64,000 nucleotides of DNA from Candidatus Woesearchaeota archaeon (GCA_018653365.1 JABIAG010000001.1:452951-516950); one strand, 5' to 3'. Numbered from the stretch's first letter, positions 38,612 to 60,864 are shown. Notes: generated by a model from the sequence alone, not told the origin. A program made the numbers and translations.

Positions 38612-38689
38612 TTGTGCGCTTACTTGTGCGGTTTAATTTTAACAATACAGAAGCTCAGGGCCAATAATTCGCTACTTTGTGCGGTTTAA
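38612..38689. repeat. short direct repeats around the end of the VirB4 gene
   Basis: TTGTGCGGTTTAA occurs exactly at 38624-38636 and 38677-38689, and a shorter relative TTGTGCGCTTA at 38612-38622. The third copy covers the last codons of the VirB4 gene. A 7-bp hairpin around 38464-38483 lies in the same gap. Such repeats may bind a plasmid-type replication or partition protein, or mark recombination. No gene other than the small one above is seen in 38417-38671. Confidence 0.4.
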
Positions 38690-41689
38690 ATTGCTATTAA
38701 TAACAGAGTTTTTTTGACCGCTAAATTGTAACTGCACAAATTCCTTTATTTCATGACGCAATAACATTTTTAGACCGTGCTTGGCAAAACTGTTTTTGAT
38801 TCTATTTCCTGTTAATATAATATAAGCACGCTTCCCATAATCTCTTACTATATTCTCAAACTTTTCTTTTTTGTTCTTTCTATTTTCTCTTAAACATATG
38901 CCGGTTTCAACTTCTAAACCTATCTTTTGTCCTAATTTATTCTTAAAAACAACATCGGGTTTCTTAGTCTGATAACATTTAACCTCTTTTGTATACTTTC
39001 TTATCTCTTCTGCAATTATTGCAACTAAAAAAGTATGTTCAGCAGATTCAGGATGATTAGGCTTAACATAATAAGGAAAAGGACCGGATTCAAGATTATG
39101 ACACTTCATAAGCACATAATTGTGATTATTCAACATATTAATTTGTAAAGGAGTTAAACCTTTAGCTCCATGAAATGGCTTGTTAATGTCAATATTAGCT
39201 TTTTCATCTTCCTTATCATCCTTTACTTTAGGCAGTTTAGCCTCACCTAAGCTTATAAGCTCATTAGGATTGGTGGTTATTAGTTTATGCTCCTCTTCAC
39301 TCGCAACTACCTTTAATTCTTGATGATCATTATCCATAATTAAAACACCATCTCCGGGCATGGCAGATAACAAATAATCTTGTTCTGGCTGACTTAAATT
39401 AAATGTTGTTGCTACACTTCTTATTACCGCTGGTTTTTGTCTTAGAAGAAAAGTATAAGAAGTATTAGAAAGAACAGCATGACCTGCCTTTGAAGCAACT
39501 AAATCAGCAACATCCTGAGTAATCATCAACAACCCCAAATTATGCTTTCTACACGTCTTAACAATTTCAAAAATATAACTTGATTCTTTAGCAGTCTGCA
39601 ATAAAGACCAAGCTTCATCAATAACAAAAACCTTCTTTCTATTTGTACCTTTCATCTTCATATAAACATAATCAAGAACTAAATACATAACAACGGGTTT
39701 GACCTGTTTAGGCATGTTACCAATATTAAAACACAAAAAATTATTATCAAAGTTAATTCTGGTTTTTCTATCAAGAAAACCAAAAACACCCCGTTCAGTG
39801 TACATCTGCAAACGATTAAGTAATGCTCGATAAGTTACTTTTTCCTGCTGAACAGAAGCCTTTTCTAACTTACTTAAAGTTAAAAAAAGATCAGACATTA
39901 TTGGTGGTTCATGACTATTATAATCATCTCTTGTTATCCCACAGTTCTCATAAGTTAAGTCAATAGCTCTATCAAGAATAGACTTTTGTAATTCATTAAG
40001 GTCCTTAAACATTATTTGAAATAAATCCATCAAACTAAGCCTTTTTTCAAGATACTCATGCCCCATAAGATCCAACGGATTAATAATAGTTTCAGAATCC
40101 TTAGAAATAGTTATACACTCACCACCATAATGCTGTGTAATAGCCAAATACTCCCCCTGAGGATCAATAATTATGATATCTGTTCCATTCATAAACTGTC
40201 TTGCAATAAGAAGCTTAGTAAAATAACTCTTACCACCTCCCGATGTTGAAAGAACAAGACCATTAGCATTAGCTAAGTTGAAGATGTTTTTAATTAATGG
40301 AATGCCATTCTTATTTAACCCTAATAAAATGCCATCATTATCAATATTTAAAAAAGGACTTGAAAAAGGAAAAAAAGCAGCTAATCCTTTTGTGTGAATA
40401 TTTCTTGTAAGTTTTAAAGCATTATTAGCTAAAGGAAGCATACTAGTATAACTCTCCATCATCTGAAACAAAGGAGGCTTATTCTGAATCATCAAAGAAT
40501 CTAACTCAGCTTTAACCTTTTTAGAAAGCAAATCAATCTCTTCCTTATCTCTGCCCTTACACATAACATATAAAGAAACATCAAAAAGCTTCTGCTGACC
40601 CTTTTGTAAATCTGTTAAAATTTCCTTTGTAGCTTTGAACTTAATATCCAAACTTGGATTAAGAATACCTTTTTGAGAATCAACATACAAATCAGCTTGT
40701 TGCTTTTGCAAATCCCTATTTAACTGAATCATCATCATGTCAATTGGATACGGTTGAATATGAATACTAATATCATATTTATCCCCCGAACCAATAATTC
40801 TGTCTAAAAAACCTTTTTCAACAGAACTAGGATAACCAAAAACTGCGATGAGTTTACAAAATAAGTTATCAATAGCAAAATGATCTGGGAAGAATTTAAC
40901 TTCATTAGGAGAAAACAAGAAATGGGCAACTTCCTTAATCTCTTTTTCAACCTTCTTATCTTTCATAACAGCAAACAACTTAATAAGAGAATTATCAGTT
41001 AATCTCTTTACTTTTAAACCAATATTAGAAAGCTTCTCAGCACAAACATCAGCTTGTACCTCAATATTATCTTTTTCCCTTATTATTATGTAAAAATTCC
41101 TATTCTGAACACCATTAACTTCAATAGACCTTTCTATAAACTGCTTATATGATTCAAATAACGAGTTTGATCTTTCAGTATTTGCAAGCTTGCCAATATG
41201 TTCAAAATGATCTTTCAAAGAAATAGGATTAGTAGTAATATGGATTTGGATAGGAAAATCTAAACTGTTTAAAAACTTCTGAAATCCAATAAGAATAGCT
41301 TCCTTCTCATCATCGGTCTTAAGCATAAAATTCATAGGAATAACTTCCAAAATAGCAAGCTTGCTCTTAGACTGAATTATAGTATTATTTCGTATAGCTT
41401 TAATATCAACTATGCTCTGAAGAATCTGACTTAAAACACTTACTTTAGGATTCTTCTTATAATTATAAAAGTTTTTAAGCTTATTTTTCCCATCAAAAAA
41501 CATAAAAAAAGCAGCAGTACAAAGAATAAATAAAATAATCGTGCTTGTCACTTCCACAGACAAACCAGACTTAAAAGCAATAATAAAACAGATTAAGAAT
41601 GTGGGTAGAGCATAAACAAGTTGAGAGAAGGTTAAACCAAACAAAATCTTCTCCTTATGCTGAAGCGGAGGAGGGATGTCGTAAGCCAT
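38672..41689 (-). CDS. virB4: VirB4-family secretion ATPase fused to a PrgI/VirB3-like N-terminus and a nuclease-like C-terminus
   Basis: The 1005-residue protein has three parts. Residues 1-90 resemble PrgI/VirB3: DIPPPLQHKEKILFGLTF, then two membrane helices. Residues about 100-830 are a VirB4/TraC-type ATPase with Walker A STSGGGKSYF near 480, Walker B VFVIDEAW near 690 and DVADLVASKAG after it. Residues about 850-1005 show a possible PD-(D/E)xK core: KPDVVF near 910, then LEVETG near 925 followed by a Lys/Arg-rich helix. VirB4 ATPases power type IV secretion and conjugation. The nuclease-like tail is unusual. Upstream on the same strand are a lipoprotein, SNase and CxxC gene. Confidence 0.85.
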   Translation of the reverse strand: MAYDIPPPLQHKEKILFGLTFSQLVYALPTFLICFIIAFKSGLSVEVTSTIILFILCTAAFFMFFDGKNKLKNFYNYKKNPKVSVLSQILQSIVDIKAIRNNTIIQSKSKLAILEVIPMNFMLKTDDEKEAILIGFQKFLNSLDFPIQIHITTNPISLKDHFEHIGKLANTERSNSLFESYKQFIERSIEVNGVQNRNFYIIIREKDNIEVQADVCAEKLSNIGLKVKRLTDNSLIKLFAVMKDKKVEKEIKEVAHFLFSPNEVKFFPDHFAIDNLFCKLIAVFGYPSSVEKGFLDRIIGSGDKYDISIHIQPYPIDMMMIQLNRDLQKQQADLYVDSQKGILNPSLDIKFKATKEILTDLQKGQQKLFDVSLYVMCKGRDKEEIDLLSKKVKAELDSLMIQNKPPLFQMMESYTSMLPLANNALKLTRNIHTKGLAAFFPFSSPFLNIDNDGILLGLNKNGIPLIKNIFNLANANGLVLSTSGGGKSYFTKLLIARQFMNGTDIIIIDPQGEYLAITQHYGGECITISKDSETIINPLDLMGHEYLEKRLSLMDLFQIMFKDLNELQKSILDRAIDLTYENCGITRDDYNSHEPPIMSDLFLTLSKLEKASVQQEKVTYRALLNRLQMYTERGVFGFLDRKTRINFDNNFLCFNIGNMPKQVKPVVMYLVLDYVYMKMKGTNRKKVFVIDEAWSLLQTAKESSYIFEIVKTCRKHNLGLLMITQDVADLVASKAGHAVLSNTSYTFLLRQKPAVIRSVATTFNLSQPEQDYLLSAMPGDGVLIMDNDHQELKVVASEEEHKLITTNPNELISLGEAKLPKVKDDKEDEKANIDINKPFHGAKGLTPLQINMLNNHNYVLMKCHNLESGPFPYYVKPNHPESAEHTFLVAIIAEEIRKYTKEVKCYQTKKPDVVFKNKLGQKIGLEVETGICLRENRKNKKEKFENIVRDYGKRAYIILTGNRIKNSFAKHGLKMLLRHEIKEFVQLQFSGQKNSVINSNLNRTK

Positions 41690-41742: not shown

Positions 41743-42435
41743 TTATTGTATAATCTTCTCGCTTAAATCTCCTGCTTTATTAACAATATAACCTTTTGCT
41801 ACCCAATACATACTACTCATTACTGTAGATACGCAGGTAGGACAGGTTCGTGCAAAGGTGGTAAGTCCAAATGTTCGCGAAAAGCTTCCCACACCAGAAA
41901 AAACAAGTTTATGAACTCCCCCACTAGTTATTAACATCAATTCCACTGTGAAAGAAACTGACTTCTTTAAAACTAAGTCAACAGAAGAAGAATCAGTTTT
42001 ATCAAGAGAATAACAAGCTCCTACAAGTTCATTATAATTATCTACTAAAGGTGCATAACGATTTAAATTATTATTAAACTTGTGATAATTATCTGAAGCC
42101 TTACCAAAAAGCTTCATCTCTTTGTCAATTTTATCATTATATACGTTAATTACAAAATTTAACTTATCAACCATTAATTTATAATCTTCATAGGAATAAA
42201 ATTCTTTAACATCAAGCTTTTTTAGATTGGCTTTTTTAATGGGATTTGCTATACTTTTTGCTAAATCATATTTAAGTTCAAACTGCGCACTTTCGTTTTT
42301 CTTAAGATCTGATAAATAATCTTTGGAAGAATCTACGATTTTAACAATGTTACCAGTCACTTTATTGTGTTCTTTCTCTGTACATGCAATTAATAAAAAC
42401 AGCAAAAACAGAACGAAAATAATCGATAACCTCAT
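41743..42435 (-). CDS. lipoprotein of the VirB4 operon
   Basis: The 230-residue product has a signal peptide ending in lipobox LIAC near residue 18. The rest is helical and charged, with one hydrophobic stretch near the C-terminus (VSFTVELMLITSGG and CVSTVMSSMYWVA). I choose the ATG whose first bases overlap the SNase stop (ATGA). Its position between SNase and VirB4 suggests a component of the secretion apparatus, comparable in place to a VirB7- or VirB5-like factor. No sequence similarity to those is visible. Confidence 0.65.
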   Translation of the reverse strand: MRLSIIFVLFLLFLLIACTEKEHNKVTGNIVKIVDSSKDYLSDLKKNESAQFELKYDLAKSIANPIKKANLKKLDVKEFYSYEDYKLMVDKLNFVINVYNDKIDKEMKLFGKASDNYHKFNNNLNRYAPLVDNYNELVGACYSLDKTDSSSVDLVLKKSVSFTVELMLITSGGVHKLVFSGVGSFSRTFGLTTFARTCPTCVSTVMSSMYWVAKGYIVNKAGDLSEKIIQ

Positions 42436-42716
42436 CGTCCTTTGTTTTTGCAACCTCTCGCTCTCATCCTTTGGTTTATTGACCCATCTTTGTTTGACAT
42501 ATTACCCACTTGTCGTCCATACCTGTCTTTTGCGACTGGTTTCCAAATAACAACCCCTTTGCTTCTTCCAGTCATACTTGCAACACGTCTTGTTGCTTTA
42601 CTTCCACCGAATTGATGTCTTTCGGGAGCACGAACATTATTTAATCTAAATTTTGTTCCATCAGTAAATGTGCCCGAATCTCCATCAATCCAATGATCAA
42701 CTCTTTTTCTTATCAT
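42432..42716 (-). CDS. short SNase/thermonuclease-like nuclease
   Basis: The 94-residue protein keeps the core of the staphylococcal nuclease fold: DGDSGTF near the N-terminus, FRLNNVRAPE (the catalytic Arg and Glu in RLxxxxAPE) and AKDRYGRQVG (the second catalytic Arg). It is shorter than the usual 130-150 residues and ends soon after this motif. A strong GGAGG site precedes the ATG. It overlaps the lipoprotein gene and would be co-made with VirB4. A DNA-trimming role in transfer or entry is inferred. Confidence 0.75.
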   Translation of the reverse strand: MIRKRVDHWIDGDSGTFTDGTKFRLNNVRAPERHQFGGSKATRRVASMTGRSKGVVIWKPVAKDRYGRQVGNMSNKDGSINQRMRARGCKNKGR

Positions 42717-42905: not shown

Positions 42906-43010
42906 TTTTTATCACCTTAAACAAAATTAATTTTAAGACATAATTAGTTTTCTGAAGTTATTGGCGAATATTTGTATCAATTGCGAGTATTATTACCAAA
43001 TAATAATAAA

Positions 43011-43021
43011 AATTATAAATA
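43011..43021 (+). promoter_or_regulatory. TATA box of the HTH gene at 43042
   Basis: AATTATAAATA lies 21-31 nt upstream of the ATG at 43042. It excludes an upstream start 27 codons earlier. Confidence 0.5.
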
Positions 43022-43041
43022 ACCACATATTCTTAAATAAA

Positions 43042-43716
43042 ATGATGAAAAAAGATATGATTAGAAATGCTCTTACGAGTTTTAAAAATTTGTCAAAAAG
43101 TCAAGCAGATGCATTGATAATCATAATAAAACAACAAAAAAAATTGACTAAAACTGAAATAGTTAATCTTTTGGATAAAGAGAATATATCTAATAAACAA
43201 ACTGCTTATCGATTGCTAAATGAATTAGTAACGAGAAAAGTTCTTTTTATAGACAATAATTATTATCAACCAATAAATACGCGAATGCTGATTGATGATT
43301 GCAATAACTCATTAACGTTAATGGAAACTGAAATAGAAGGATTGGAAATTACTGCAGATTGGGAGAAGTCTGATCCAAGTAATAGAGCCAAAATAATAGT
43401 TCAAGAACATGAAATTATACACGAAATTTATGGGATACAAAGCCAAAATTGTGATATGTATTATTACTATAAAGAAAATGATAATAATTTGAGTTTTTGG
43501 AAAACTCTTAAGGAACGATTTAATGGTATTAAACTCGAAAAAGGTACATATAATTGTATAGTATTCATAAATAAAGACAATAAACCTTTTGAGTCGGGAG
43601 TAATAATATTGTCGAAGAGAGTTACAAAACAGGGTGCAAACCAGTATTATGGTAGTCTAATTTTTGATGAAGAACTACCTAAGAAGTTTATGAAAAAGAG
43701 GGGAAAAGATGAATAA
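43042..43716 (+). CDS. winged-helix protein of unknown function
   Basis: The 224-residue product has an N-terminal winged-helix domain (SKSQADALIIIIKQQ, then TKTEIVNLLDKENISNKQ and YRLLNELVTRKVLF). A C-terminal domain of about 130 residues is rich in Tyr and beta strands (MYYYYKEND, YNCIVFIN, GVIILSKR). The second domain is not recognised and may be an effector-binding or TrmB-like part. It overlaps the next gene by 8 nt, forming a two-gene unit beside the restriction-modification operon. Confidence 0.6.
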   Translation: MMKKDMIRNALTSFKNLSKSQADALIIIIKQQKKLTKTEIVNLLDKENISNKQTAYRLLNELVTRKVLFIDNNYYQPINTRMLIDDCNNSLTLMETEIEGLEITADWEKSDPSNRAKIIVQEHEIIHEIYGIQSQNCDMYYYYKENDNNLSFWKTLKERFNGIKLEKGTYNCIVFINKDNKPFESGVIILSKRVTKQGANQYYGSLIFDEELPKKFMKKRGKDE

Positions 43717-44146
43717 AACATTAAAAATAAATGAGTTAATTATACTTGTAGTGGGATTTATTGGCTGTGTTTATGGGAGAACATTTATACAAAAGCTCTT
43801 TTTTTTGATTGAGAATGAATTATTTAAAGATATGGATTTAAATTATATTAAATATCATTATGGCCCCTATAGTACTGAATTAAGAGATGCAGTTGAAGCA
43901 TTGAAGAGAAAAGAACTTATTAAAGATGTGTGCATCATAATGGATGGACATGTGGGACACTGTTATGAGTTAACGGAAAAAGGCAAACACAAATTTACTT
44001 CTTTAGATACTAAAACTAGTCGAGTGGCATCAAAGCTTAATTCTTTTTGTGATAGATATAAAGAGTATAAACCTAGTGAGTTATTAAGATTAGTATATTC
44101 CAAATATCCGCTTTGGACAGTGAATAGTGTGCTGGTAAACAACTAA
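43709..44146 (+). CDS. YwgA/SocA-like (Panacea-type) protein
   Basis: The 145-residue product has the pattern VYGRTFIQKLFFLIENE, then YIKYHYGPYSTELRDAVEALKRKELI, as in YwgA and phage-associated SocA-like (Panacea) proteins. There a winged helix of this form neutralises toxins or adapts proteolysis. It is paired by an 8-nt overlap with the HTH protein, so the two may form a toxin-antitoxin or regulatory pair. Its end meets the convergent DUF2779 gene (4-nt overlap). Confidence 0.6.
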   Translation: MNKTLKINELIILVVGFIGCVYGRTFIQKLFFLIENELFKDMDLNYIKYHYGPYSTELRDAVEALKRKELIKDVCIIMDGHVGHCYELTEKGKHKFTSLDTKTSRVASKLNSFCDRYKEYKPSELLRLVYSKYPLWTVNSVLVNN

Positions 44147-45588: not shown

Positions 45589-45912
45589 TTATCGAAGTCT
45601 TTTCTTCATATGTTCAGCTGCTTGCTTTTCAGCTTCTGCTGTTGCTATTTTTGCTGCTTTTTGTGCTTCTGCAACTTCACCTTTTGGACTTATTGAAAGA
45701 TTTACTTTTTGAACTTGTTCAGCCTCAACTTTTGCACCAAAATTAACTATCTGAATATCTAATCCTCCGCCAACTTTTCCTTTTACTACGGCGGACAATT
45801 CTAATTTAATAGGTTCGGATAGTTCCCAATCAGCCCCCAATCCTTCAACAGTCGATTCTTTTGTTTTCTTAATAAAATCTGCCAAAGAAGTTTCAACTTT
45901 ATCTTCACTCAT
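45589..45912 (-). CDS. Trypco2-domain protein
   Basis: The 107-residue product matches, as I recall it, the trypsin-co-occurring domain 2: ADFIKKTKES, then PIKLELSAVVKGKVGGGLDIQIVNFGAKVE and VNLSISP. In other genomes this domain occurs with proteases and conflict-system effectors. Here its start overlaps the hsdM stop by 4 nt and the DUF2779 gene follows, so it is an integral part of the type I operon. The C-terminal 25 residues are an Ala/Lys/Glu helix. No enzymatic residues are visible. Confidence 0.65.
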   Translation of the reverse strand: MSEDKVETSLADFIKKTKESTVEGLGADWELSEPIKLELSAVVKGKVGGGLDIQIVNFGAKVEAEQVQKVNLSISPKGEVAEAQKAAKIATAEAEKQAAEHMKKRLR

Positions 45913-47408
45913 TTTTCATCTCCACTTAAATCATCAGAAATTGATTTTAACTCTTCCAATGCACTTTCCAAGTCATCAACTAACTCTTGTGCAATTATGT
46001 TTGGTTCTGGAAGATTATCCAAGTCATCTAAACTCTTATCTTTAATCCAGAATAAGTCTAGATTCGTTTTATCTCGTTTTAGAATTTCTTCATAAGTATA
46101 TTTTCTCCATCTTGCGTCTGGACTTTCTTTCGAATAAAGTTCTTTTCTTTCGTGTCTGTTATCTGGATTGTAACATTCAATAAATTCTTTTAAGTCATTA
46201 TATTTAAATGGATTTTCTTTTGGTGTAAAGTGCATATTCGTTCTTAAATCATAGAACCATATTTCTTTTGTTTGTGCATCTGGAGATGCTCCTTTCTTTT
46301 CAAAGAATAGAACATTTGCCTTTACTCCTGGTTTATAAAATATTCCTGTTGGTAATCGCAAAATAGTATGTAAATCACAAGTTTCCATAATCTTCTTTCT
46401 TACTGTTTCAGAACCTCCTCCTTCAAATAATACATTATCTGGAAGAACAACGGCGGCGACACCCTTTATTTTTAGAATGCTTCTAATGTGTTGTAAAAAG
46501 TTTATTTGCTTGTTACTTGAAGTTACCCAAAAATCATCTCGTAAGACATTCAAGTCTTTTGTTTTCGCTTCACCTTCATCTGTAACGAATTTTTCAGAAG
46601 ACTTTTTCCCAAAAGGTGGATTTGTTAAAACCATATCAAATATCGGACCAGGATTTTCTTTTAATGCGTCAGATCCTGCATCAATAGGACTTTCATCACT
46701 TGCAAGTCCGTGAAGATAAATGTTCATAACGCAAAGACGTGCAGCCATAGGTACAATTTCGACACCAGAAAAGCTTCCTGACTTTAATTTAATTAGTTGA
46801 TCTCTATCTAATTTATAATGTTTCAATATAAAATTATAAGCAGAAAGTAAGAATCCTCCAGTTCCACAACAAGGGTCGTGAATTTTGTATGTTTCTTTTC
46901 CAGGAGGTTGTGGTTTCATAACTTTAACCATTGCATCAATTAACGGTCTTGGAGTGAAATACTGTCCAGCTCCACCTTTAACATCAGAAGCATTCTTTTC
47001 TAAAAGTCCTTCATAAGCATCTCCTTTTGTATCTGTATCGAGAGAAAGCCAGTTTTCTTTTGCAATAAGTTCTACAATGAGTTTTTTTAGTTTAGCAGGA
47101 TCTTGAATTTTATTTTGCGATTTTCTAAATATAACTCCTACAATTCCTTTTTCTTTTCCAAGAGAATTCAGCGTTTTTAGATATTGTTGTTCTAATTCAA
47201 CACCATCTTTGCTCAATAAAGTTTCCCAATTATATTCATTTGGAATCTTTGATTTTTTATTGAAGGGAGGTTTTGTTCGTTCGTCGTCCATCTTTAAGAA
47301 AAGAAGAAATGTTAATTGTTCTACATAATCACCATAAGATAAACCATCATCTCGTAGAATACCACAATAATTCCATAATTTATTTACTATTTGTTTTGGA
47401 TCAGTCAT
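45909..47408 (-). CDS. hsdM: type I restriction-modification methyltransferase subunit HsdM
   Basis: The 499-residue product is an N6-adenine DNA methyltransferase. SAM motif I is DPCCGTGGFLLSAY near 179, and catalytic motif IV NPPFGKKS near 264. The N-terminal helical domain (QIVNKLWNYCGILRDDGLSYGDYVEQLTFLLFLKM) is the HsdM_N domain that binds HsdS. It modifies the host copy of the recognition site and, with HsdS and HsdR, forms the restriction complex. It overlaps hsdS and the Trypco2 gene at its two ends. Confidence 0.95.
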   Translation of the reverse strand: MTDPKQIVNKLWNYCGILRDDGLSYGDYVEQLTFLLFLKMDDERTKPPFNKKSKIPNEYNWETLLSKDGVELEQQYLKTLNSLGKEKGIVGVIFRKSQNKIQDPAKLKKLIVELIAKENWLSLDTDTKGDAYEGLLEKNASDVKGGAGQYFTPRPLIDAMVKVMKPQPPGKETYKIHDPCCGTGGFLLSAYNFILKHYKLDRDQLIKLKSGSFSGVEIVPMAARLCVMNIYLHGLASDESPIDAGSDALKENPGPIFDMVLTNPPFGKKSSEKFVTDEGEAKTKDLNVLRDDFWVTSSNKQINFLQHIRSILKIKGVAAVVLPDNVLFEGGGSETVRKKIMETCDLHTILRLPTGIFYKPGVKANVLFFEKKGASPDAQTKEIWFYDLRTNMHFTPKENPFKYNDLKEFIECYNPDNRHERKELYSKESPDARWRKYTYEEILKRDKTNLDLFWIKDKSLDDLDNLPEPNIIAQELVDDLESALEELKSISDDLSGDEK

Positions 47409-48621
47409 TATTATTATATCTCACTAACTTGCCATCAAAGGCAGATTTTAAAATTGATTTTCGAAAAGTTTCAACTTTAAGTAAAGATGCATTAACAGTT
47501 TCTTCGAGTTTATCTATAACTGAAAATTGAATCTCTATTTCTTGAACGACTTGTTCTCGAACCGAACTATCTGGTGTGGGAAATATCATGTTTGTAAGTA
47601 TATTTAAGTTGATATTCTTTTGAGCAGTTGCAGATGCTTTATTATCCAAAATTTGTTGAACAAAGTCTAAATAATATTTAACAAATAAAGTTGTGTATTT
47701 ATCTTTTGAACAAAATCCTACAACGCTGTCGGGAAAACACGCATCAATATCTAATACTGCGGTTTTTGCAATGTTTGCTGCAATAGTTATACAAAGAGTT
47801 CCTTTTGACCATAGTTTACTTTGTTTTAAACCTATTTCATTGTATGTTTTAGAATAGTTATTTAACTTCCCCCCATTTGCACGTGATATTTCTCCGGTTT
47901 GAACAAAAGGATATTTGCCGTTAAATAAAACAGGATCATTTCTTGGTCTGTGTTTTGATTTTCCCCTCCCAAAAGTTCCTAAACTTGATAATGGCCCCGT
48001 ATCCCAATTTAATGGTATTTTCAATATAAAATTGAATAAATTTATTTCTTGAAATTCTTCTTTTGAAAACCTACCTCCCTCGAAAGATGATCTTAAAATA
48101 CTTTTTCTATAAATTTCAAGTTTTTTCTTAATTGTTTGCAAACTCTTAATGGCAGAATCTAATCTTGTAAATTGTATTTCAATCTCCCCAACAAGATGTT
48201 TTTGCTTTGGTAAATCAATCTTTTTATTTTTATTTATGGGAAATATAAAATCAAGATTTTGATATACTGATATATAATATCGTTTGTGCGTACTTGAATT
48301 TATTTGTTTAGAAGCCATTTGATAATAAACATATTTTATAGATACATCCGTTCGTTTTAATTTTAATATTTTCATTGCACTTGACTTTACTTTGAAAGGA
48401 AAATCAACAAACTTTAAATTAGTTGTAAAATCATCAAAAATAATAACTGGCACATTTTCATAAATACCTTCTGTGTCGTCTGTATACCCTTTGATAAATC
48501 CTTTATTAGCAGTTAAAACGGGTATGTTTGTTTTCTCTTTTTTTATTGGACTTGTAACTATAAATGGGTTTGGCTGGTCATAATCCAAGACTTCTTTTAA
48601 TTTTAAAGTTTCACATTCCAT
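47401..48621 (-). CDS. hsdS: type I restriction-modification specificity subunit HsdS
   Basis: The product is about 406 residues with the two target-recognition domains and two conserved helical spacers of HsdS. Two similar ends recur: QKHLVGEIEIQFTRLDSAIKSLQ...KLEIYRKSILRSSFEG at the middle, and EQVVQEIEIQFSVIDKLEE...VETFRKSILKSAFDGKL at the C-terminus. These are the coiled coils that set the spacing of the bipartite DNA site. I use the ATG at 48621, 4 nt after the hsdR stop; a GTG at 48633 is possible. Confidence 0.9.
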   Translation of the reverse strand: MECETLKLKEVLDYDQPNPFIVTSPIKKEKTNIPVLTANKGFIKGYTDDTEGIYENVPVIIFDDFTTNLKFVDFPFKVKSSAMKILKLKRTDVSIKYVYYQMASKQINSSTHKRYYISVYQNLDFIFPINKNKKIDLPKQKHLVGEIEIQFTRLDSAIKSLQTIKKKLEIYRKSILRSSFEGGRFSKEEFQEINLFNFILKIPLNWDTGPLSSLGTFGRGKSKHRPRNDPVLFNGKYPFVQTGEISRANGGKLNNYSKTYNEIGLKQSKLWSKGTLCITIAANIAKTAVLDIDACFPDSVVGFCSKDKYTTLFVKYYLDFVQQILDNKASATAQKNINLNILTNMIFPTPDSSVREQVVQEIEIQFSVIDKLEETVNASLLKVETFRKSILKSAFDGKLVRYNNND

Positions 48622-48625
48622 ATCT

Positions 48626-51385
48626 TCACACACTCAACTCATTTAGTTCTTCGATTATTCCATTCAATCTGTCTCCAAAGACTTGATGTGCTTTTCCAAG
48701 CCCACCCATTTGGGCAAGTGTTCCTAATTCAAAGTCGTCTGTTGTGATTTCAACTGATTCTGAAATGTGTTCTTTGATTTTTTCAAGCCAGTTCAATTGT
48801 TCTTGACTAAATGAAACTCCCATTGCTTTTTGTTTAGAAAGCCAGTTTGAAAACCTTTCATTAACTGTTACAACATATGGTTCTAATGTTTCATCTTTAC
48901 CAAGTTCAAATCTTAATAATGATACGAAATCTACTGGTTTTCCTTTTGCTGAACCGTGGACTTTTCCATCTTCTAATTGTTTGTAAGCACTCCATAGTTT
49001 TGGAGATGTTAAACTATAAGGGGGTGTTCTAATCTTTTCAACCATTTCTTTAAGGTCAGAATACTTCAAATTCTTATTATTGTAGAATGCTTGGATAATG
49101 GTTAGTTCATCTTTGTTTTCTTCAATAAACTTCTCAAACGATTGAATAGTTTGTTTCGCCTTCTCTGTCGATTCTTCTGAGAAACCTGTTTCTAAGACTT
49201 CATCAACTGAAACGTTATCAATTATTACTTCTGTTTCTTTCTTAATCTCTGGAAGTCTTGTTAGTAGTTCTCCGTGATTTAAGAATTCTGTAATTGCAAC
49301 ATTTCTGGATTCTGCACAAACTTCATTTAATTGATCTGTTGTAACGTCATCTCCAAACTTTTCTCTTGCTTTTGTAAGATTATTATCCGGGTTGATTGCT
49401 TCAACAAATAACTTTGCAAAGAATTTCAAGTCTGCTCCGCCTGATAATTTTTCTATCTCTGCTTTTTGTGTGTCATTTAGTTTCTTTTGTAATCGAGATA
49501 ATCTGCTTGCCATTGAAGACAAGTCTTCATCTGTTGGGTCGCCATATCTGATATTTTGTAATAATTTTTCAAATGAAACTCCAAGTTTTTGTTCTAATGG
49601 CTTACTTTCTGATAACTCGTGATCTGCATCTGTGACACCAACTGCATCTACAATTATGAAATGGTCTTTTGCCATTGCATCAGGAGTTACAGCCTTAAAG
49701 TCATCATTGGGTATTACTCGGACTCCTCGTCCTTTCATCTGCTCAAAATAATTGCTGCTGTGAATATCTCTCATAAAGAATACTACTTCCAATGGTTTAA
49801 TGTCCGTTCCTGTTGCAATCATATCAACTGTAACAGCAATTCGTGGGTAGAAACTATTTCTAAATTGTTGAATTAAATTCTTTGGAGTTTCTCCTTCTGT
49901 TTTGTAAGTGATTTTAACAGCAAACTTATTTGATTCTCCAAATTCTTCTCTAACTATTTGAACTATTTCTTCTGCGTGATTATCATCTTTTGCAAAAATA
50001 AGAGTTTTAGGCATTACTGTTCTACCTGGAAATATTTCTGTGAATAATTTGTCCTTGAAAGTTCTAACGATGGTTCTAATTTGATTGGTTGCAACTACTG
50101 ACCTATCTAGTTTTGAACTATCATAGACTTCTGCTTCTTCAAGTGTTTCCCATCGTTTTCTTCTGGTTCTTTTATCTCTTTTTTGAATAACAGTTCCAGC
50201 ATCAATAGTAGAACCATCTTCTGTAATTTTAGTTTTAATTCTATACACACCAAAATCAACATTTACTCCATCTGCAACTGCTGCTTCGTGTCCATACTCC
50301 ATAACCATATTTTGATTAAAGAACCCGATAGTGTGCATTGATGGTGTTGCTGTAAGTCCAAGTAAGAAGGAATCAAAATAATCTAATACTTGTTTCCATT
50401 GGTTATAGATTGAACGATGGCACTCATCAACAATAACTATGTCAAATTCTTCGATAGGAATCTTTTCATTATATTCAACTTTTTTCATTTCGTCAGGACC
50501 TGTTTCAAAACCAGACCTTTCTTCTGCTGATTCGTCAAGTTCTTCTCCTCGAAGCATAGAATAAACTCTTTGTATAGTTGAAATACATACTTTACTTGAA
50601 CTATCAATAAAGTTACTTGTTAATCTTTGAACGCCATATATTTCTGTAAATTTACGACCATCATCTGGTGTTGTGAATTTTTGGAATTCTGTTTCTGTTT
50701 GTTCTCCTAAATTTCCTCTATCTACGAGGAATAATATTCTTTTTGCTTTGGCATTTTTTAGAAGCCTGTAACAAATATTAACTGCTGTGTAAGTTTTACC
50801 GCTTCCAGTTGCCATTTGAAGCAATGATTTTGGTTTCCATAAAGCGAGAGAACTTTCTGTATTGATAATTGCTATTTTTTGGGCAGGCCAAAGAGTATCA
50901 TTATTTAATTCATGAGTTGTTGATAACCGTTTCCTAAAAGTTTCACGACCTTCTTCAAGCCAGTTCTCACAAGTTTCCGGTCTATGAAAACTAAATACTG
51001 CTCTACTTTGAGGTTTTGGATCCCAAAGATTTGTAAAATGAGTTTCCGAACCTGATGTTTCATATACAAAAGGGAGAGGTAATGGGACACTTTTGAATTG
51101 TTCTGGAAACCCTTCAGCATATCTGCTTGACTGGATTTCCTTTCCAGTTAATGTTTCGCCTTCTTTTTTAGCTTCAATAATTCCACAAGCAATGCCATTT
51201 ACAAATAGAACATAATCTGCTTCGCCAACACCTTGTCCCATATGAAAGTATTCTACCGCTATGCCTTTCGCGGCCCTTATGTTGGCATTTTTAAAATCTT
51301 GAATAATCCAACCTGCTTTTTTTAGCATTGGATTAATAACTTTATGGCGCGCTTTATCTTCGGGAGTATGGATATATTCAGTCAT
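48626..51385 (-). CDS. hsdR: type I restriction enzyme HsdR subunit
   Basis: The 919-residue product has an N-terminal PD-(D/E)xK nuclease core (GEADYVLF, then GIIEAKKEG near 75), and SF2 helicase motifs: MATGSGKTYTAVN near 195, DECHRS near 321, TATPS shortly after, and a later RGVRVIP (motif VI region). It translocates and cuts unmodified DNA. The C-terminal 200 residues are helical and bind the methyltransferase core. It is the first gene of the minus-strand operon hsdR-hsdS-hsdM-Trypco2-DUF2779. The 218-bp gap before it, shared with the cytosine methyltransferase gene, is very AT-rich and must hold both promoters. Confidence 0.95.
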   Translation of the reverse strand: MTEYIHTPEDKARHKVINPMLKKAGWIIQDFKNANIRAAKGIAVEYFHMGQGVGEADYVLFVNGIACGIIEAKKEGETLTGKEIQSSRYAEGFPEQFKSVPLPLPFVYETSGSETHFTNLWDPKPQSRAVFSFHRPETCENWLEEGRETFRKRLSTTHELNNDTLWPAQKIAIINTESSLALWKPKSLLQMATGSGKTYTAVNICYRLLKNAKAKRILFLVDRGNLGEQTETEFQKFTTPDDGRKFTEIYGVQRLTSNFIDSSSKVCISTIQRVYSMLRGEELDESAEERSGFETGPDEMKKVEYNEKIPIEEFDIVIVDECHRSIYNQWKQVLDYFDSFLLGLTATPSMHTIGFFNQNMVMEYGHEAAVADGVNVDFGVYRIKTKITEDGSTIDAGTVIQKRDKRTRRKRWETLEEAEVYDSSKLDRSVVATNQIRTIVRTFKDKLFTEIFPGRTVMPKTLIFAKDDNHAEEIVQIVREEFGESNKFAVKITYKTEGETPKNLIQQFRNSFYPRIAVTVDMIATGTDIKPLEVVFFMRDIHSSNYFEQMKGRGVRVIPNDDFKAVTPDAMAKDHFIIVDAVGVTDADHELSESKPLEQKLGVSFEKLLQNIRYGDPTDEDLSSMASRLSRLQKKLNDTQKAEIEKLSGGADLKFFAKLFVEAINPDNNLTKAREKFGDDVTTDQLNEVCAESRNVAITEFLNHGELLTRLPEIKKETEVIIDNVSVDEVLETGFSEESTEKAKQTIQSFEKFIEENKDELTIIQAFYNNKNLKYSDLKEMVEKIRTPPYSLTSPKLWSAYKQLEDGKVHGSAKGKPVDFVSLLRFELGKDETLEPYVVTVNERFSNWLSKQKAMGVSFSQEQLNWLEKIKEHISESVEITTDDFELGTLAQMGGLGKAHQVFGDRLNGIIEELNELSV

Positions 51386-53412: not shown

Positions 53413-54428
53413 AAGACGCAAGACAAGAAGCAGATGAGCTTCTTGAACAATTTTCCCATAGGTTAAAGCAATATACTGCTAAAGACAACATTACCGTAGA
53501 TGATTGTGATGATTTTATGGCTGATGTTGGCAAGTTTGGTATTGCTATAACCTCATTGTTAAAAGATTTAGGGTTTAGTAATGGACAAATAAATGATTTT
53601 AAATCAGAACATTTAGATGATTTGCTAAGGTCTAGTGATGTAAGTTATGACCAAGTTGTAAATGATCCAAGATTTAGAAACCTTTTTTTTGGTGAAAAAA
53701 TAAGACCTGGAAGTCATAAATTACTTACAACACTAACAAGTTTAGTTTTAGGTAGTTCATTATTAACAAATGTCCTACTTTACAATAGACTACCTCAAGA
53801 AACAATAGGAAAAACACGCACTGAATATAAAACAGTTTATCTAAACCCCTTTCAATCACGACTTTTTGACACAGTTTATCGACTCAGCAGTAAACAAATA
53901 AGAAGACGACCTTTTGTTTCTCGTGGAGATTGGAATCAACAAGTAAAAAGTTATGCAAATTTTCTCTTTGATAAACCACAAGAAAAAGACCTTGAAATTG
54001 TAGATAAAATACTGCGTAATTATGTAAAAAACAGGTTAAAAGGCGAAGAATCAGAACAAAGCTTAGATGAAGTTATTGATTCATATGGTGGAGAAACACT
54101 TACTGCCAACTATGTTTTTGATCAAAGATCTGATTGGACAACTTACATGAAACATATGGAAGTTCAAAGATTAAAAGAAAAATTAGAAGATTACCTTGAT
54201 ACGGAAGGAGAATTGAAACTTAGAGGACATTGGCGAACAGCGGTCTGGAAGTTTTCAGAAAAGTTTTATGACGATTATTACCTTGATGCCAATAAACGGT
54301 TAGAAGTAACCGACCTTCTTTTACGTGAATTACATGGAAGCTACCAACATGAAAAAATAACTATGGTCCCAGCAACCATTTGGTTAGGTCAAGGATTCGT
54401 AATCAAATATTCTGGAGGTAAACAATGA
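53409..54428 (+). CDS. hypothetical protein with one short hydrophobic segment
   Basis: The 339-residue protein is charged and helical with a single short hydrophobic stretch near residue 118 (LTTLTSLVLGSSLLTNVLLY), which may cross the membrane. No enzyme motif is seen. Overlaps of 4 nt on each side place it in the operon between the methyltransferase and the VirB2/VirB6-like genes. A structural part of a transfer channel is a reasonable inference from context only. Confidence 0.55.
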   Translation: MKDARQEADELLEQFSHRLKQYTAKDNITVDDCDDFMADVGKFGIAITSLLKDLGFSNGQINDFKSEHLDDLLRSSDVSYDQVVNDPRFRNLFFGEKIRPGSHKLLTTLTSLVLGSSLLTNVLLYNRLPQETIGKTRTEYKTVYLNPFQSRLFDTVYRLSSKQIRRRPFVSRGDWNQQVKSYANFLFDKPQEKDLEIVDKILRNYVKNRLKGEESEQSLDEVIDSYGGETLTANYVFDQRSDWTTYMKHMEVQRLKEKLEDYLDTEGELKLRGHWRTAVWKFSEKFYDDYYLDANKRLEVTDLLLRELHGSYQHEKITMVPATIWLGQGFVIKYSGGKQ

Positions 54429-54745
54429 AAATAGCCTTGCTCTTTTTGTTTTTGTTATTAATGCCAGTTGTATTAGCAGAAATCGATTTTGACCAAGAAT
54501 TAACAGATGAGGAAGAAGAACAATTTGACGCAATACTTGCCCCAGTAATGAAAATCTACAGTTTCATAAGGTACGCAGCAACAGTTATTGGAGTTTTAAT
54601 GCTGGTGTTTGCAGGAATAACCTTTGTAACTGCAGGTGGAGAAATGGCCAAAAAAGAAAAAGCTAAGAACATAGCAACAGGAGTAATAATTGGCCTTATT
54701 GTAATCTGGGTAGCACCATTAATCGTCAAATATGTTTTTGGCTAA
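54425..54745 (+). CDS. VirB2/TrbC-like pilin or channel protein
   Basis: The 106-residue product has a cleavable signal peptide (ALLFLFLLLMPVVLAE), an acidic linker, and two membrane helices separated by a short basic loop: GVLMLVFAGITFVTAGGEMAKKEKAKNIATG and VIIGLIVIWVAPLIVKYVF. The FxTAGG...KxExAKN loop is typical of VirB2/TrbC-type proteins. These form the conjugative pilus or line the transfer channel. It overlaps the upstream gene by ATGA and lies 2 nt before the VirB6/TrbL-like gene. Confidence 0.75.
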   Translation: MKIALLFLFLLLMPVVLAEIDFDQELTDEEEEQFDAILAPVMKIYSFIRYAATVIGVLMLVFAGITFVTAGGEMAKKEKAKNIATGVIIGLIVIWVAPLIVKYVFG

Positions 54746-54747
54746 AC

Positions 54748-56793
54748 ATGAAAAAAGCACTATTTGTTTTACTTTTAATAATAATCCCTTTAGCTAACGC
54801 TTTTGAATGTGAAACAACAACAGATAAAAATTATTGTGAAATTATACAAAGTTCTTCTTTAAGCGAAGTTGATAAAGACTCTTTTTATTCTGCTTTGCTT
54901 TATACCAATCATTCAGAACCAGATCATCGTTTTATAGAAGATTATAACCTTAATGTTATAGTTAATGATTCTCCTTTCGATGCTGAAGTTAAAAGCTCCA
55001 AATATATAAAGAATGCTTGGGTTTCTATATTTAGTGTTTTTCCTTCTGTTTATGAAAACACAACATTATATGTTCCAAACAAAATTAACGTATTAAGTAG
55101 TTATGATTATGAAATTGATTTACCAAATGATTATAGTGGTTCTTACCCTGATACAAGTAATGGAGATTGTGCAAGAACATATGACCTTGTAAAGAACGAA
55201 TACAGGTTTAAACAATCATTTAATGACGAACTTAAAAGTTCAAACAAACTAATAGAAGTTGACGTTAATATAGACGGCCAATTAAAAGCAGAGCTATCAA
55301 TAGAAACAGAAGTAAAGATAAGTCAGTATCACTGGAAAAGATACTGTTGTGTAAGAGGAAAAGACGGTTGTAAAGAATACTGCCACAAATGCGACCAGTA
55401 CAAAACAAGTTATGAAACAGATAATGTTGAAGTAGAAGAAACAAAAGATATAACTTTATACATCAAAGATCCAAGTATAAAAATAAACTTTCTTGATTCT
55501 TATTACAATACAACAAAAGGTAATTTTACAGCTTCAGATTATACAAGCTTTATTATTAACTTTCCAAAATCATATGTTAAAAACAATTTGTACCGTTACG
55601 AAGTCATTTTTGAAAAAAAGCCACTATACTTTGCATATTTAAAAGCAAAAGAAATTAACCAAACAACACATAAAAACCTTTATCTCTCAGATAACACATT
55701 CTTTGTAAATAACGCAAGTTATTGTAATTATGTTATACAAGATTATTTTTCTAAAACTGAAGGTTTTGTTAATGTAGAAGTTGAAAGACAAGAATTAAAA
55801 AAATTAGAAACCGAAGAAAGAAACTTCAAGATTGCATTGCTCTTTAAGATTTTAATTCTTATTGGTATTTGTTACGTTGTTTATGTTATACTTCGTTCCA
55901 AATTCAAAAAAGTTGGAATATTTGTTTTATTAATTCTAATTTGTTTGCCAACAGTATTAGCAGAAGAAGAATGCGGATTAACAAACCTAGCATCATGCAT
56001 CCCAGAAAAAATGTATGAATACTTCATTCACATACTCAATTTGCCATTAGCACCCCTTCTAGGGACCGTTTCTTCATTACTTACAGCAAACCCCTCAACA
56101 AACATCTTTTATCATCTGTGGGCAATTATGAGATATATTATAAGCTTCTTTTACGTATTCATCTTTATTTATGCAGGATACATTTTCTTAACTTCAAACG
56201 CAAACCCCATAAAAAGAGCACAAGCAAAAGAACTATTAAAAAACACATTCATAATGATTGTACTGATCCAAGGATCTTTTTACTTATATGATTTAATATT
56301 ATATTTAAGTAGTGTTATGAACAGTACAATAATCGGGATGATAGATCCTCACTTTTTCATGCTTACAGCGGATAATCTATTAAATATTGGTTTGGAACTT
56401 GTATTCTCGGGAACTTATCTAATTGTGTTACTTTTCACAGTCATCTTATTGACCCTTCGCTTCATGCTAGTAAGCTTTGGAGTAGTACTCTTGCCCTTAA
56501 GCATATTTTGTTACTTCCTACCACCACTAAAACAATATGGAAAGTTTTTGCTGCACTTATTGGGTAGCTTCATATTCGTAACATTCTTAGACCTCTTGAT
56601 AATTTTAGGATGCTCAATGCTAATCAATGTTCCACTATTTGAAAACTTCAAAATAGTAGTAATGATAGTATGCTTCATCCTCGTTGATTACACATTAATA
56701 TTACTAATAAAATTTGCAATGAACGGAGCAAGTAACAACCCCATTAAAGAAGACCTTGGTCAGGCTATGAAATACGTGGCGTTGTTGGTTTGA
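54748..56793 (+). CDS. VirB6/TrbL-like membrane protein with an internal signal-peptide-like segment
   Basis: The 681-residue protein has an N-terminal signal peptide, an extracellular domain of about 340 residues with a cysteine cluster (YCCVRGKDGCKEYCHKCDQ near 200), and a membrane helix near 370. A second signal-like segment (GIFVLLILICLPTVLAEE) lies near 388-405. The last 270 residues then have about six helices, as in VirB6/TrbL channel proteins. It looks like two proteins fused end to end, and signal peptidase could separate them. It follows the VirB2-like gene, as in type IV secretion operons. Confidence 0.7.
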   Translation: MKKALFVLLLIIIPLANAFECETTTDKNYCEIIQSSSLSEVDKDSFYSALLYTNHSEPDHRFIEDYNLNVIVNDSPFDAEVKSSKYIKNAWVSIFSVFPSVYENTTLYVPNKINVLSSYDYEIDLPNDYSGSYPDTSNGDCARTYDLVKNEYRFKQSFNDELKSSNKLIEVDVNIDGQLKAELSIETEVKISQYHWKRYCCVRGKDGCKEYCHKCDQYKTSYETDNVEVEETKDITLYIKDPSIKINFLDSYYNTTKGNFTASDYTSFIINFPKSYVKNNLYRYEVIFEKKPLYFAYLKAKEINQTTHKNLYLSDNTFFVNNASYCNYVIQDYFSKTEGFVNVEVERQELKKLETEERNFKIALLFKILILIGICYVVYVILRSKFKKVGIFVLLILICLPTVLAEEECGLTNLASCIPEKMYEYFIHILNLPLAPLLGTVSSLLTANPSTNIFYHLWAIMRYIISFFYVFIFIYAGYIFLTSNANPIKRAQAKELLKNTFIMIVLIQGSFYLYDLILYLSSVMNSTIIGMIDPHFFMLTADNLLNIGLELVFSGTYLIVLLFTVILLTLRFMLVSFGVVLLPLSIFCYFLPPLKQYGKFLLHLLGSFIFVTFLDLLIILGCSMLINVPLFENFKIVVMIVCFILVDYTLILLIKFAMNGASNNPIKEDLGQAMKYVALLV

Positions 56794-57406: not shown

Positions 57407-57431
57407 GTCCACATTGAATATCTTGATTATT

Positions 57432-59582: not shown

Positions 59583-59652
59583 AGACATACCCGAATGGAT
59601 CAAAATATTAAAAAAAATGGAGCAAAAAATAGAACTAGAAAACTCCCTTTAA
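59569..59652 (+). CDS. possible 27-residue gene next to the recombinase
   Basis: A short frame from ATG 59569 overlaps the end of the ribbon-helix-helix gene and has GAGGTT 6 nt upstream. It encodes an acidic helix (SEDIPEWIKILKKMEQKIE). It also overlaps the recombinase stop region on the other strand. A coupled small partner is possible; evidence is modest. Confidence 0.3.
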   Translation: MEDSEDIPEWIKILKKMEQKIELENSL

Positions 59653-60807
59653 CTCTTTTAACCTTTCAAAAAACAATTCTTTTATCTTAGGATCTTCTAA
59701 CATTTTAGCCATCATATCATCAGCATGCTTTCTCTCAGTATCCATTTCCATAGCATACTTAAGATCCAATATTCCACCACACTTATTACAATGCTTAGAA
59801 TCATAACTGTTTATAGTATCACACCTTGGACACACTCTCGGCCTTTCCTGAACTAATTCTTTATCAGATTCGACCTCAATCCCATTCATCTTAAGAATAG
59901 CGCTATCAACAGCCTTTCCACTCATATGAACATAAGTTGAAGGCATTTTACTCCCCTGAATCCAACCAAAATACTGATTCATCTGAAACTCCGTCAAATG
60001 ATTAGCCATAAAAGTAGCACGCGAATGCCTAAACAAATGAGGATTACTCCTCTTCTTCATACCTGCTTTTTTAAATAAGTCTCTTAACATCTTACACATG
60101 GCAGGATAAACCATCCCCTGGTTCTGCCTTCGATTCCCAAAATTAATCCAAACTGGAGCAGAAGGATCATCTTTAGCAGGGTGTACGTTCAACCAAGTAG
60201 AAAGATGAGGAGTGCTGGCAATTAAACGAATCTTTCTTGACCCAGTCTTTCCACTAATAGACAAAACCAGCCCATGCTTATCAAAGACCACATTTTTAAT
60301 ACAAATATTTCCTAACTCACTTATTCTTGCACCACTCTCCCATAACATAGAAACCAAAGCCTTATTTCTTGGATGATCCGCAAGTTTAATTAACTTTTGA
60401 ACCTCTTCTTCAATTAATAAATCTCCTTCCGAAGGTAACTTTTGTTCAGACCTACTAATTCTTATGTTAATCCAATCTACTAATTCAGGACGTTCAAACC
60501 AAACATAAAACCTTCTCAACATTACTTTGTAAGTTTGTTTGGTCCAACCCGAATAAGTCTGTTGCTGAATCCCACTAACAAGCTCTTTTATGTCATCTTT
60601 TGAAACCTTATCAAAATCTTTGTTAAGTCTTTTTGCAAGAAGTTTTAATTTATTCAAATAATTAATTAATCTGGGTTTAGAAAGACTCTCTAATACCAAA
60701 TCTCCATGAAACTTTAGTATTAATTCCTTGTTGCTAGCAGAAAGATCTCCATCCTTAATTGCATTTATTGCTGCTTCATATTTTTTGTCATAACCATGTA
60801 TGTCCAT
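59635..60807 (-). CDS. tyrosine recombinase/integrase with a C-terminal zinc ribbon
   Basis: The 390-residue protein has a SAM-like core-binding domain (about 1-130) and a catalytic domain with the Arg in ESGARISELG (about 156), HLFRHSRA (about 258), and Tyr in PSTYVHMSG (about 288). A zinc ribbon CPRC...HCNKCGG (about 325-340) and a helical tail follow; this ribbon is seen in archaeal XerA-like integrases. It catalyses strand exchange between attachment sites. The gene stands 77 nt from the 3' end of tRNA-Ser, the classic position for the integrase of a tRNA-integrating element. The start is fixed by GAGGT before the ATG and a TTTTTAAAA box. Confidence 0.88.
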   Translation of the reverse strand: MDIHGYDKKYEAAINAIKDGDLSASNKELILKFHGDLVLESLSKPRLINYLNKLKLLAKRLNKDFDKVSKDDIKELVSGIQQQTYSGWTKQTYKVMLRRFYVWFERPELVDWINIRISRSEQKLPSEGDLLIEEEVQKLIKLADHPRNKALVSMLWESGARISELGNICIKNVVFDKHGLVLSISGKTGSRKIRLIASTPHLSTWLNVHPAKDDPSAPVWINFGNRRQNQGMVYPAMCKMLRDLFKKAGMKKRSNPHLFRHSRATFMANHLTEFQMNQYFGWIQGSKMPSTYVHMSGKAVDSAILKMNGIEVESDKELVQERPRVCPRCDTINSYDSKHCNKCGGILDLKYAMEMDTERKHADDMMAKMLEDPKIKELFFERLKELKGVF

Positions 60808-60846
60808 TTTATTACCTCTAGAAGCAGTTTTTAAAAAGTTTGTAGC

Positions 60847-60864
60847 CCGCAAAGGGGCTTGCGG
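60847..60864. repeat. GC-rich inverted repeat between integrase and tRNA-Ser
   Basis: CCGCAA and TTGCGG flank a 6-nt loop. An alternative hairpin GCCC/GGGC overlaps it. It is the only GC-rich patch in this gap and may be an integrase arm-binding site or a transcription stop. The flanking GATTCCAACTG also resembles the tRNA T-arm at 60896-60906 (10 of 11). Confidence 0.4.

Follow-up and report, generated by a model that had tools for sequence, protein, structure and literature searches.

A putative MOBC-like initiator nuclease fused to the VirB4 motor of DPANN archaea

How does DNA transfer start in an archaeal element that carries a conjugation motor and no recognisable relaxase? The question is raised by a 64,000-nucleotide stretch of DNA from Candidatus Woesearchaeota archaeon (GCA_018653365.1 JABIAG010000001.1:452951-516950), the whole of which is referred to here as the window, where one gene encodes a PrgI/VirB3-like membrane part, a VirB4 ATPase and a nuclease-like domain in a single chain. 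The host group consists of tiny, mostly uncultured archaea. Surveys published between 2011 and 2025 describe archaeal conjugative elements with VirB4, usually VirD4 and few or no recognisable relaxases; they propose unknown relaxases, double-stranded transfer or HerA-NurA processing, and call the start of archaeal conjugation an open question (PMC3158045, PMC6563490, PMC9905601, PMC12857230). Here we consider it somewhat probable that, in DPANN archaea, the fused domain acts as a MOBC-like nuclease that initiates conjugative transfer. It may be what archaea have in place of the enzyme with which bacterial conjugation begins, a counterpart that has long been missing. We found no VirB4-nuclease fusion in the literature, subscription papers and preprints aside.

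The fusion protein and its C-terminal domain

The gene is an uninterrupted open reading frame (ORF) encoding one chain, as a preliminary description of the window had read it, with the following layout (pLDDT, predicted local distance difference test; AF2, AlphaFold2).

38672..41689, minus strand: PrgI/VirB3 - VirB4 - PD-(D/E)xK fusion protein, 1005 amino acids, ATG start
41456..41665, minus strand: PrgI/VirB3-like two-helix membrane part, residues 9-78 (PF12666; helices; separate ORF in relatives)
39278..41416, minus strand: VirB4 body, residues 92-804 (NCBIfam models CD1110, 92-787, and Mbov_0397, 9-804; Foldseek match to R388 VirB4)
40226..40249, minus strand: Walker A motif of the VirB4 ATPase, STSGGGKS, residues 481-488 (S483, G484, G486, K487 and S488 invariant in 24 relatives)
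39197..39268, minus strand: disordered linker from motor to nuclease domain, residues 808-831 (pLDDT <50; length variable among relatives)
38720..39178, minus strand: C-terminal PD-(D/E)xK nuclease-like domain, residues 838-990 (AF2, Foldseek, conservation, profile comparison)

The N-terminal part matches PF12666 (PrgI) with 27.1 bits, against a Pfam cut-off of 27.0, and is an ORF of its own just upstream, overlapping or abutting, in five relatives (L014, L015, L017, L018 and L028); AF2, run on the family alignment, predicts helices at residues 21-40 and 45-64, followed by the VirB4 body, the disordered linker and a separate C-terminal domain. These results agree with the two-helix PrgI/VirB3-like start and the full VirB4 ATPase of the preliminary description. 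The VirB4 N-terminal and P-loop domains are present with their Walker motifs, PF19044 (VirB4/TraG P-loop domain) covers residues 472-775 with 98 bits, and the best match of the full model in Foldseek is R388 TrwK/VirB4 (E 4e-28), with HerA far behind (2e-11). The NCBIfam VirB4 model of the Mbov_0397 family, from a mycoplasma integrative and conjugative element (ICE), covers residues 9-804 (E 6e-98, under its equivalog cut-off). Because this model already spans both parts, the PrgI-VirB4 fusion has precedent and is not new; because it ends at about residue 804, all that lies beyond is extra. Pfam yields nothing over the C-terminal 167 residues of the full-length protein.

Modelled alone (residues 838-1005), this extra part reaches a pLDDT of 91.2 and a predicted template-modelling score of 0.86, with elements in the alpha-beta-beta-beta-alpha-beta order of the PD-(D/E)xK core. 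The top Foldseek matches in the PDB (NucS/EndoMS, Can2, YaeQ, Hjc, EcoT38I and Card1) are mostly PD-(D/E)xK proteins, and the named matches in a viral library (Mrr, endonuclease I, MmcB-like and VRR-NUC proteins) all are. Best Foldseek probabilities are 0.95 and 1.00 in the two sets, and it is the agreement among matches that makes the case for a nuclease fold, no individual match lying below E 0.001. Active-site-like residues accompany the fold:

39035..39049, minus strand: E881-x3-H885, first core helix (H invariant in 59/59)
38954..38956, minus strand: D912 of the (P/A)D motif (invariant)
38900..38914, minus strand: E926-x-E928-T-G930, an ExE variant of (D/E)xK (E, E and G invariant)
38861..38863, minus strand: K943 in the following helix (invariant lysine)

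H885, D912, E926, E928, G930 and K943 are shared by all 59 aligned domain sequences (40 fused to VirB4 and 19 without a motor), so that the motif takes the form PD...ExE with an invariant lysine in the next helix. The preliminary description had recognised D...ExE and a later basic residue by eye and called for a structure prediction; the predicted structure, the fold searches and the invariant acidic, histidine and lysine residues now back its nuclease assignment. A PD-(D/E)xK nuclease fold is therefore well supported for the modelled domain, which presumably cuts DNA.

Weak Pfam matches of the isolated domain in 29 members are led by CoiA_nuc (10/29, best E 4e-4), followed by AHJR-like and HSDR_N_2; across the 59 members CoiA_nuc (PF06054) is again the nearest model (11/59, best E 4.5e-4). 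The domain profile finds nothing significant among PDB sequences, the best nuclease being Cas4 (E 1.2), and the C-terminus of the window protein has no match in plasmid and phage records.

By profile comparison, the best match among the families compared is to MOBC relaxases (TraX, MobC), which belong to the PD-(D/E)xK superfamily and not to HUH; the same source reports that the TraX active site was confirmed by mutagenesis (PMC12857230). Aligned with hhalign to 21 plasmid sequences, many of them typed MOBC by MOB-suite and two of them checked and found to match PF13814, the domain gives 79% and a score of 39.5, a value that none of 100 column-shuffled controls reaches (maximum 25.5). The percentage depends on profile depth, since it was 14% with 10 MOBC sequences and 68-79% with 21. 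As controls, Hjc scores 24.7, above its shuffles (0/100), and the HsdR N-terminus 11.6, indicating no similarity; CoiA was unusable as a further profile control, CoiA_nuc being absent from 30 related genomes. A MOBC hidden Markov model (HMM) run over 1260 ORFs of these loci has 17 domain-bearing ORFs in its top 20 (Hjc 6, HsdR 2), with a printed probability that is optimistic because scores are low and some ORFs are near-duplicates. Both MOBC and the archaeal domain have a conserved histidine, (P/A)D...F and ExE in the same order. Only a strand-helix-strand-strand piece (residues 839-875) precedes the archaeal core; hhalign, at a low threshold, aligns it to the last part of the winged helix in MOBC.

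Spread of the fusion, missing partners and motorless copies

The fusion belongs to a conserved family and is no isolated oddity. In public Nanoarchaeota, Woesearchaeota and Pacearchaeota assemblies, the domain is present in all 28 relatives whose contigs reach the C-terminus; these independent assemblies also dispose of a chance fusion or assembly artefact. Among 279 genomes sampled from the phylum, profile searches of the kind proposed in the preliminary description detect the domain in 41 and, with a second profile, the VirB4 body in 30, and cross-reading of the two lists shows the domain on 22/22 high-scoring uninterrupted family VirB4s. VirB4s seemingly without it are contig-end truncations (G094, G186) or broken copies (G137, G245). 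One genome, G063, has a diverged VirB4 without the domain, located beside glmS and a ribosomal protein gene, with no integrase in the 12 kb examined. No relative was found when the VirB4 alignment was compared with viral contigs.

Two side observations concern outlying ATPases. The G063 locus (L135, G063:C3:104000-116000) holds a diverged type IV secretion system (T4SS) with an apparently split VirB4 among glmS, ribosomal protein and RadB-like genes, and looks domesticated. ORFs of 4200-4600 amino acids with weak T4SS ATPase matches occur at G252:C31 (L130) and G157:C9 (L132), and presumably recall the giant VirB4-domain proteins of nanohaloarchaea.

The usual partners of a conjugation motor were sought in the genomes carrying the domain. 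A TraG-D_C coupling protein (PF12696) is absent from 20 such genomes, almost all of which have the VirB4 fusion, and PF02534 returns only short matches, in the VirB4s themselves, in very large ORFs and in two ORFs read as HerA-like, none of which we judge to be a coupling protein. Searches of carrier genomes for MOBP or MobA/MobL relaxases (PF03432, PF03389) are negative save for one weak, stop-interrupted MOBP-like match, and PF13814 gives nothing over its cut-off in 20 relatives. The recognised relaxase and coupling protein of an ICE are thus lacking as far as these families reach, in line with the preliminary description, which had found no relaxase in the element.

New in this analysis is that the nuclease domain also occurs apart from the motor. 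Nineteen genes carry it without VirB4, 17 of them with predicted N-terminal membrane segments, and a tyrosine recombinase is the direct neighbour of 16/19, compared with 7/226 of the remaining genes in these stretches. Overlaps of a few bases with the recombinase gene occur in several cases, and Pfam confirmed an integrase for six of seven recombinases tested. The domain tree requires nine changes between VirB4-fused and motorless settings, at least seven of them forced by well-supported branches, and in G157 a motorless copy closely akin to VirB4-fused copies coexists with one. In bacteria, an integrase and a relaxase form the minimal mobilisation kit of integrative mobilisable elements (IMEs), which borrow a resident transfer machine; by analogy, the two archaeal forms would resemble the ICE/IME relation.

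As a separate observation, reverse transcriptases like those of diversity-generating retroelements are encoded no more than a few genes away from the nuclease-domain gene, and often right beside it, in L099, L101, L105, L107-L110 and L116 (motorless form) and in L016 and L023 (VirB4 form).

The element and its neighbourhood

Around the relatives, recurrent genes encode a small pilin, a secreted or membrane protein, a polytopic VirB6-like protein, PrgI, VirB4, tyrosine recombinases and restriction-modification (R-M) cargo. The window holds a corresponding set:

54425..54745, plus strand: VirB2-like T4SS pilin, 106 amino acids (PF18895 T4SS_pilin, E 7e-11, over cut-off; cluster c3, beside VirB4 in 14 relatives)
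54748..56793, plus strand: probable VirB6-like channel protein fused to a secreted N-terminal part, 681 amino acids (clusters c2/c4 precede VirB4 in most relatives)
59635..60852, minus strand: tyrosine recombinase (integrase) of the presumed element (PF00589, E 4e-14; XerA-like in NCBIfam)
45909..51385, minus strand: type I R-M cargo between VirB4 and the other T4SS genes (PADLOC MTase_I, REase_I)
42432..42716, minus strand: small SNase-like protein, 94 amino acids (PF00565, 24.6 bits; cluster c15 in L006, L012 and L113)

As in an ICE, pilin, VirB6-like gene, VirB4 and tyrosine recombinase lie in one island, and relatives are similar; membrane topology and position suggest the VirB6 name. R-M genes adjoin VirB4 in relatives too, and in L003, the closest relative, the pilin, VirB6-like gene and VirB4 are collinear. 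Because close homologues of the SNase-like protein recur near the nuclease-domain genes of the three loci listed, its gene may be an element gene in its own right.

Further genes of the window deserve mention. Directly upstream of the fusion gene lies a lipoprotein-like gene (41743-42453, minus strand, 236 amino acids) with no Pfam match. An arrangement at 42961-44146 (plus strand), helix-turn-helix-like plus SocA/Panacea-like antitoxin (just below cut-off), resembles a toxin-antitoxin or defence pair, and a 609-amino-acid protein whose N-terminus carries a DUF4365 / PDC-M02A candidate defence domain is encoded between the T4SS genes and the integrase (57414-59243, plus strand). An imperfect direct repeat around TTGTGCGGTTTAA, at 38617-38639 and 38670-38692, has its second copy across the fusion-gene stop codon, and could possibly be a recombination or transfer site, or due to chance.

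Proposed role, alternatives and known systems

We propose that the fusion would drive a minimal conjugation system of monoderm type, carried by an element integrated in the genome of a DPANN archaeon (Nanobdellota/Woesearchaeota-like). The PD-(D/E)xK domain would recognise and nick the excised element, doing the work of a relaxase, and would hand the nicked strand directly to the tethered VirB4 hexamer, which would pump it through the VirB6/VirB2 channel; a separate relaxase and VirD4 coupling protein would thereby become unnecessary. The membrane-anchored form, made beside an integrase, would belong to smaller elements without a T4SS, which a resident system would mobilise in trans. Conjectural in this scheme are the catalytic activity, its choice of strand and site, the passing of the strand to VirB4, and transfer as such. 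The suggestion of the preliminary description that the domain may replace a relaxase gains strength, as no coupling protein or searched relaxase family was found and MOBC appears to be the closest profile of those compared; its idea that DNA is cut during its movement suits the findings less well than a nick made when transfer begins, since the domain also exists motorless, membrane-anchored and beside an integrase. We give an even chance to the wider proposition of an archaeal-specific relaxase class, in which a MOBC-like PD-(D/E)xK initiator sits on a VirB4 that has taken the coupling role while integrase-linked mobilisable elements hitch rides with a membrane-anchored domain.

Several observations weigh against this proposal. 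The relaxase negative covers PF03432, PF03389 and PF13814, other relaxase families not having been searched. The best MOBC HMM score is 13.8 bits and hhalign remains below 95%, and the weak Pfam matches are to CoiA_nuc, not to Replic_Relax. Every MOBC row has its lysine four residues past the second E (ExExTxK), whereas the archaeal domain has C932 at that position and K943 15 residues after ExE, in the next helix; a full N-terminal winged helix like that of MOBC also appears to be missing, and PF13814 Replic_Relax is not among the families listed for the 29 or the 59 domain members. With PF13814 and the ExExTxK lysine both failing, we suggest that the domain acts in the manner of MOBC relaxases but do not count it among them. 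In the window, VirB4 lies about 13 kb from the pilin and channel genes and on the opposite strand, so this copy may be rearranged. Exact and inexact searches of the 33-64 kb part revealed no convincing pair of attachment repeats, and no origin of transfer (oriT) was found in the window; the borders and mobility of the window copy are therefore presumed.

Among the alternatives, the one that survives best, though unlikely, is DNA uptake or exchange rather than export: a Ced/Ted-like importer in which the domain trims or degrades incoming DNA, as CoiA might, for repair or nucleotides. DPANN cells are thought to scavenge from hosts, and the weak Pfam matches to CoiA_nuc point the same way. Ced/Ted are themselves archaeal importers of VirB4/VirB2 type without relaxases (PMC9905601). 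Patchy presence (30 to 41/279 genomes), integrases and R-M cargo nevertheless indicate mobile elements, and uptake leaves the pairing of the motorless form with an integrase unexplained.

That pairing, in several cases with overlapping frames, is what would be expected if the domain served the recombinase as a junction or strand-end nuclease in excision and integration, coupling excision to transfer through its tether to membrane or VirB4; the weak profile similarity to the Holliday-junction resolvase Hjc (0/100 shuffles) fits as well. We regard this as improbable: a tyrosine recombinase resolves its junctions by itself, the domain comes after VirB4 in each of the 22 uninterrupted fusions, and similarity to MOBC exceeds that to Hjc.

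Very unlikely is a defence or exclusion system, in which a VirB4/HerA-like pump and a nuclease destroy competing DNA, as HerA-DUF4297 or SIR2-HerA systems do. Defence by nuclease-HerA pairs is known, such pairs appear lower down in the fold search, and the element does carry R-M and other defence genes; but the protein is marked as part of a T4SS by its VirB4 N-terminal domain and by having PrgI, pilin and VirB6 as neighbours, PADLOC matches are to ATPase models only, and we rate HerA-type defence low because the full-length fold search favours R388 VirB4 (4e-28 vs 2e-11 for HerA). Least probable is a domain that has kept its fold, lost catalysis and only binds element DNA or another T4SS part. 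In its favour, the second motif is ExE rather than ExK, the usual lysine position holds a non-basic residue and the invariant lysine sits one helix further on; against it, none of D, E, E, K and H varies among the 59 divergent sequences from both settings, and ExE is common to MOBC relaxases and also found in BamHI.

For the initiator reading, a nuclease built into VirB4, with named invariant residues, provides a specific and mutable candidate for archaeal initiation. If correct, it would reveal a T4SS that unites motor, coupling protein and relaxase in a single chain, and would supply a profile with which conjugative and mobilisable elements could be sought in DPANN archaea, a group whose gene transfer is little understood.

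Comparison with known systems sets this arrangement apart. Unlike MOBC (TraX of pAD1/pAM373, MobC of CloDF13), the archaeal domain is attached to VirB4 or to a membrane anchor, and no coupling protein was found in its genomes. CoiA, a weak match although the nearest Pfam model, is a competence protein without a T4SS motor, and nuclease-HerA defence systems have a HerA-type ATPase, a separate nuclease and no T4SS genes, whereas here a VirB4 body has T4SS neighbours. Ced/Ted and archaeal ICEs or conjugative plasmids are likewise driven by VirB4 with no known relaxase, and no motor-fused nuclease is reported for them (PMC9905601, PMC6563490, PMC12857230); Ced/Ted are proposed to make single strands via HerA-NurA, and most thaumarchaeal ICEs carry VirD4 (PMC6563490). 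The T4SS of Patescibacteria likewise combines a VirB2-like pilin, VirB3/PrgI, VirB4 and VirB6 with a mostly absent relaxase, but it is chromosomal, unlike the element-borne archaeal system, and its survey found no VirB3-VirB4 fusion and reported no nuclease fusion (PMC12102498). Finally, the VirB4 of monoderm ICEs (Mbov_0397 of the mycoplasma ICE, CD1110; MPF_FATA class), whose VirD4 partner we did not find in the archaeal genomes, has the same PrgI-VirB4 arrangement and ATPase, and its model stops where the archaeal nuclease domain starts.

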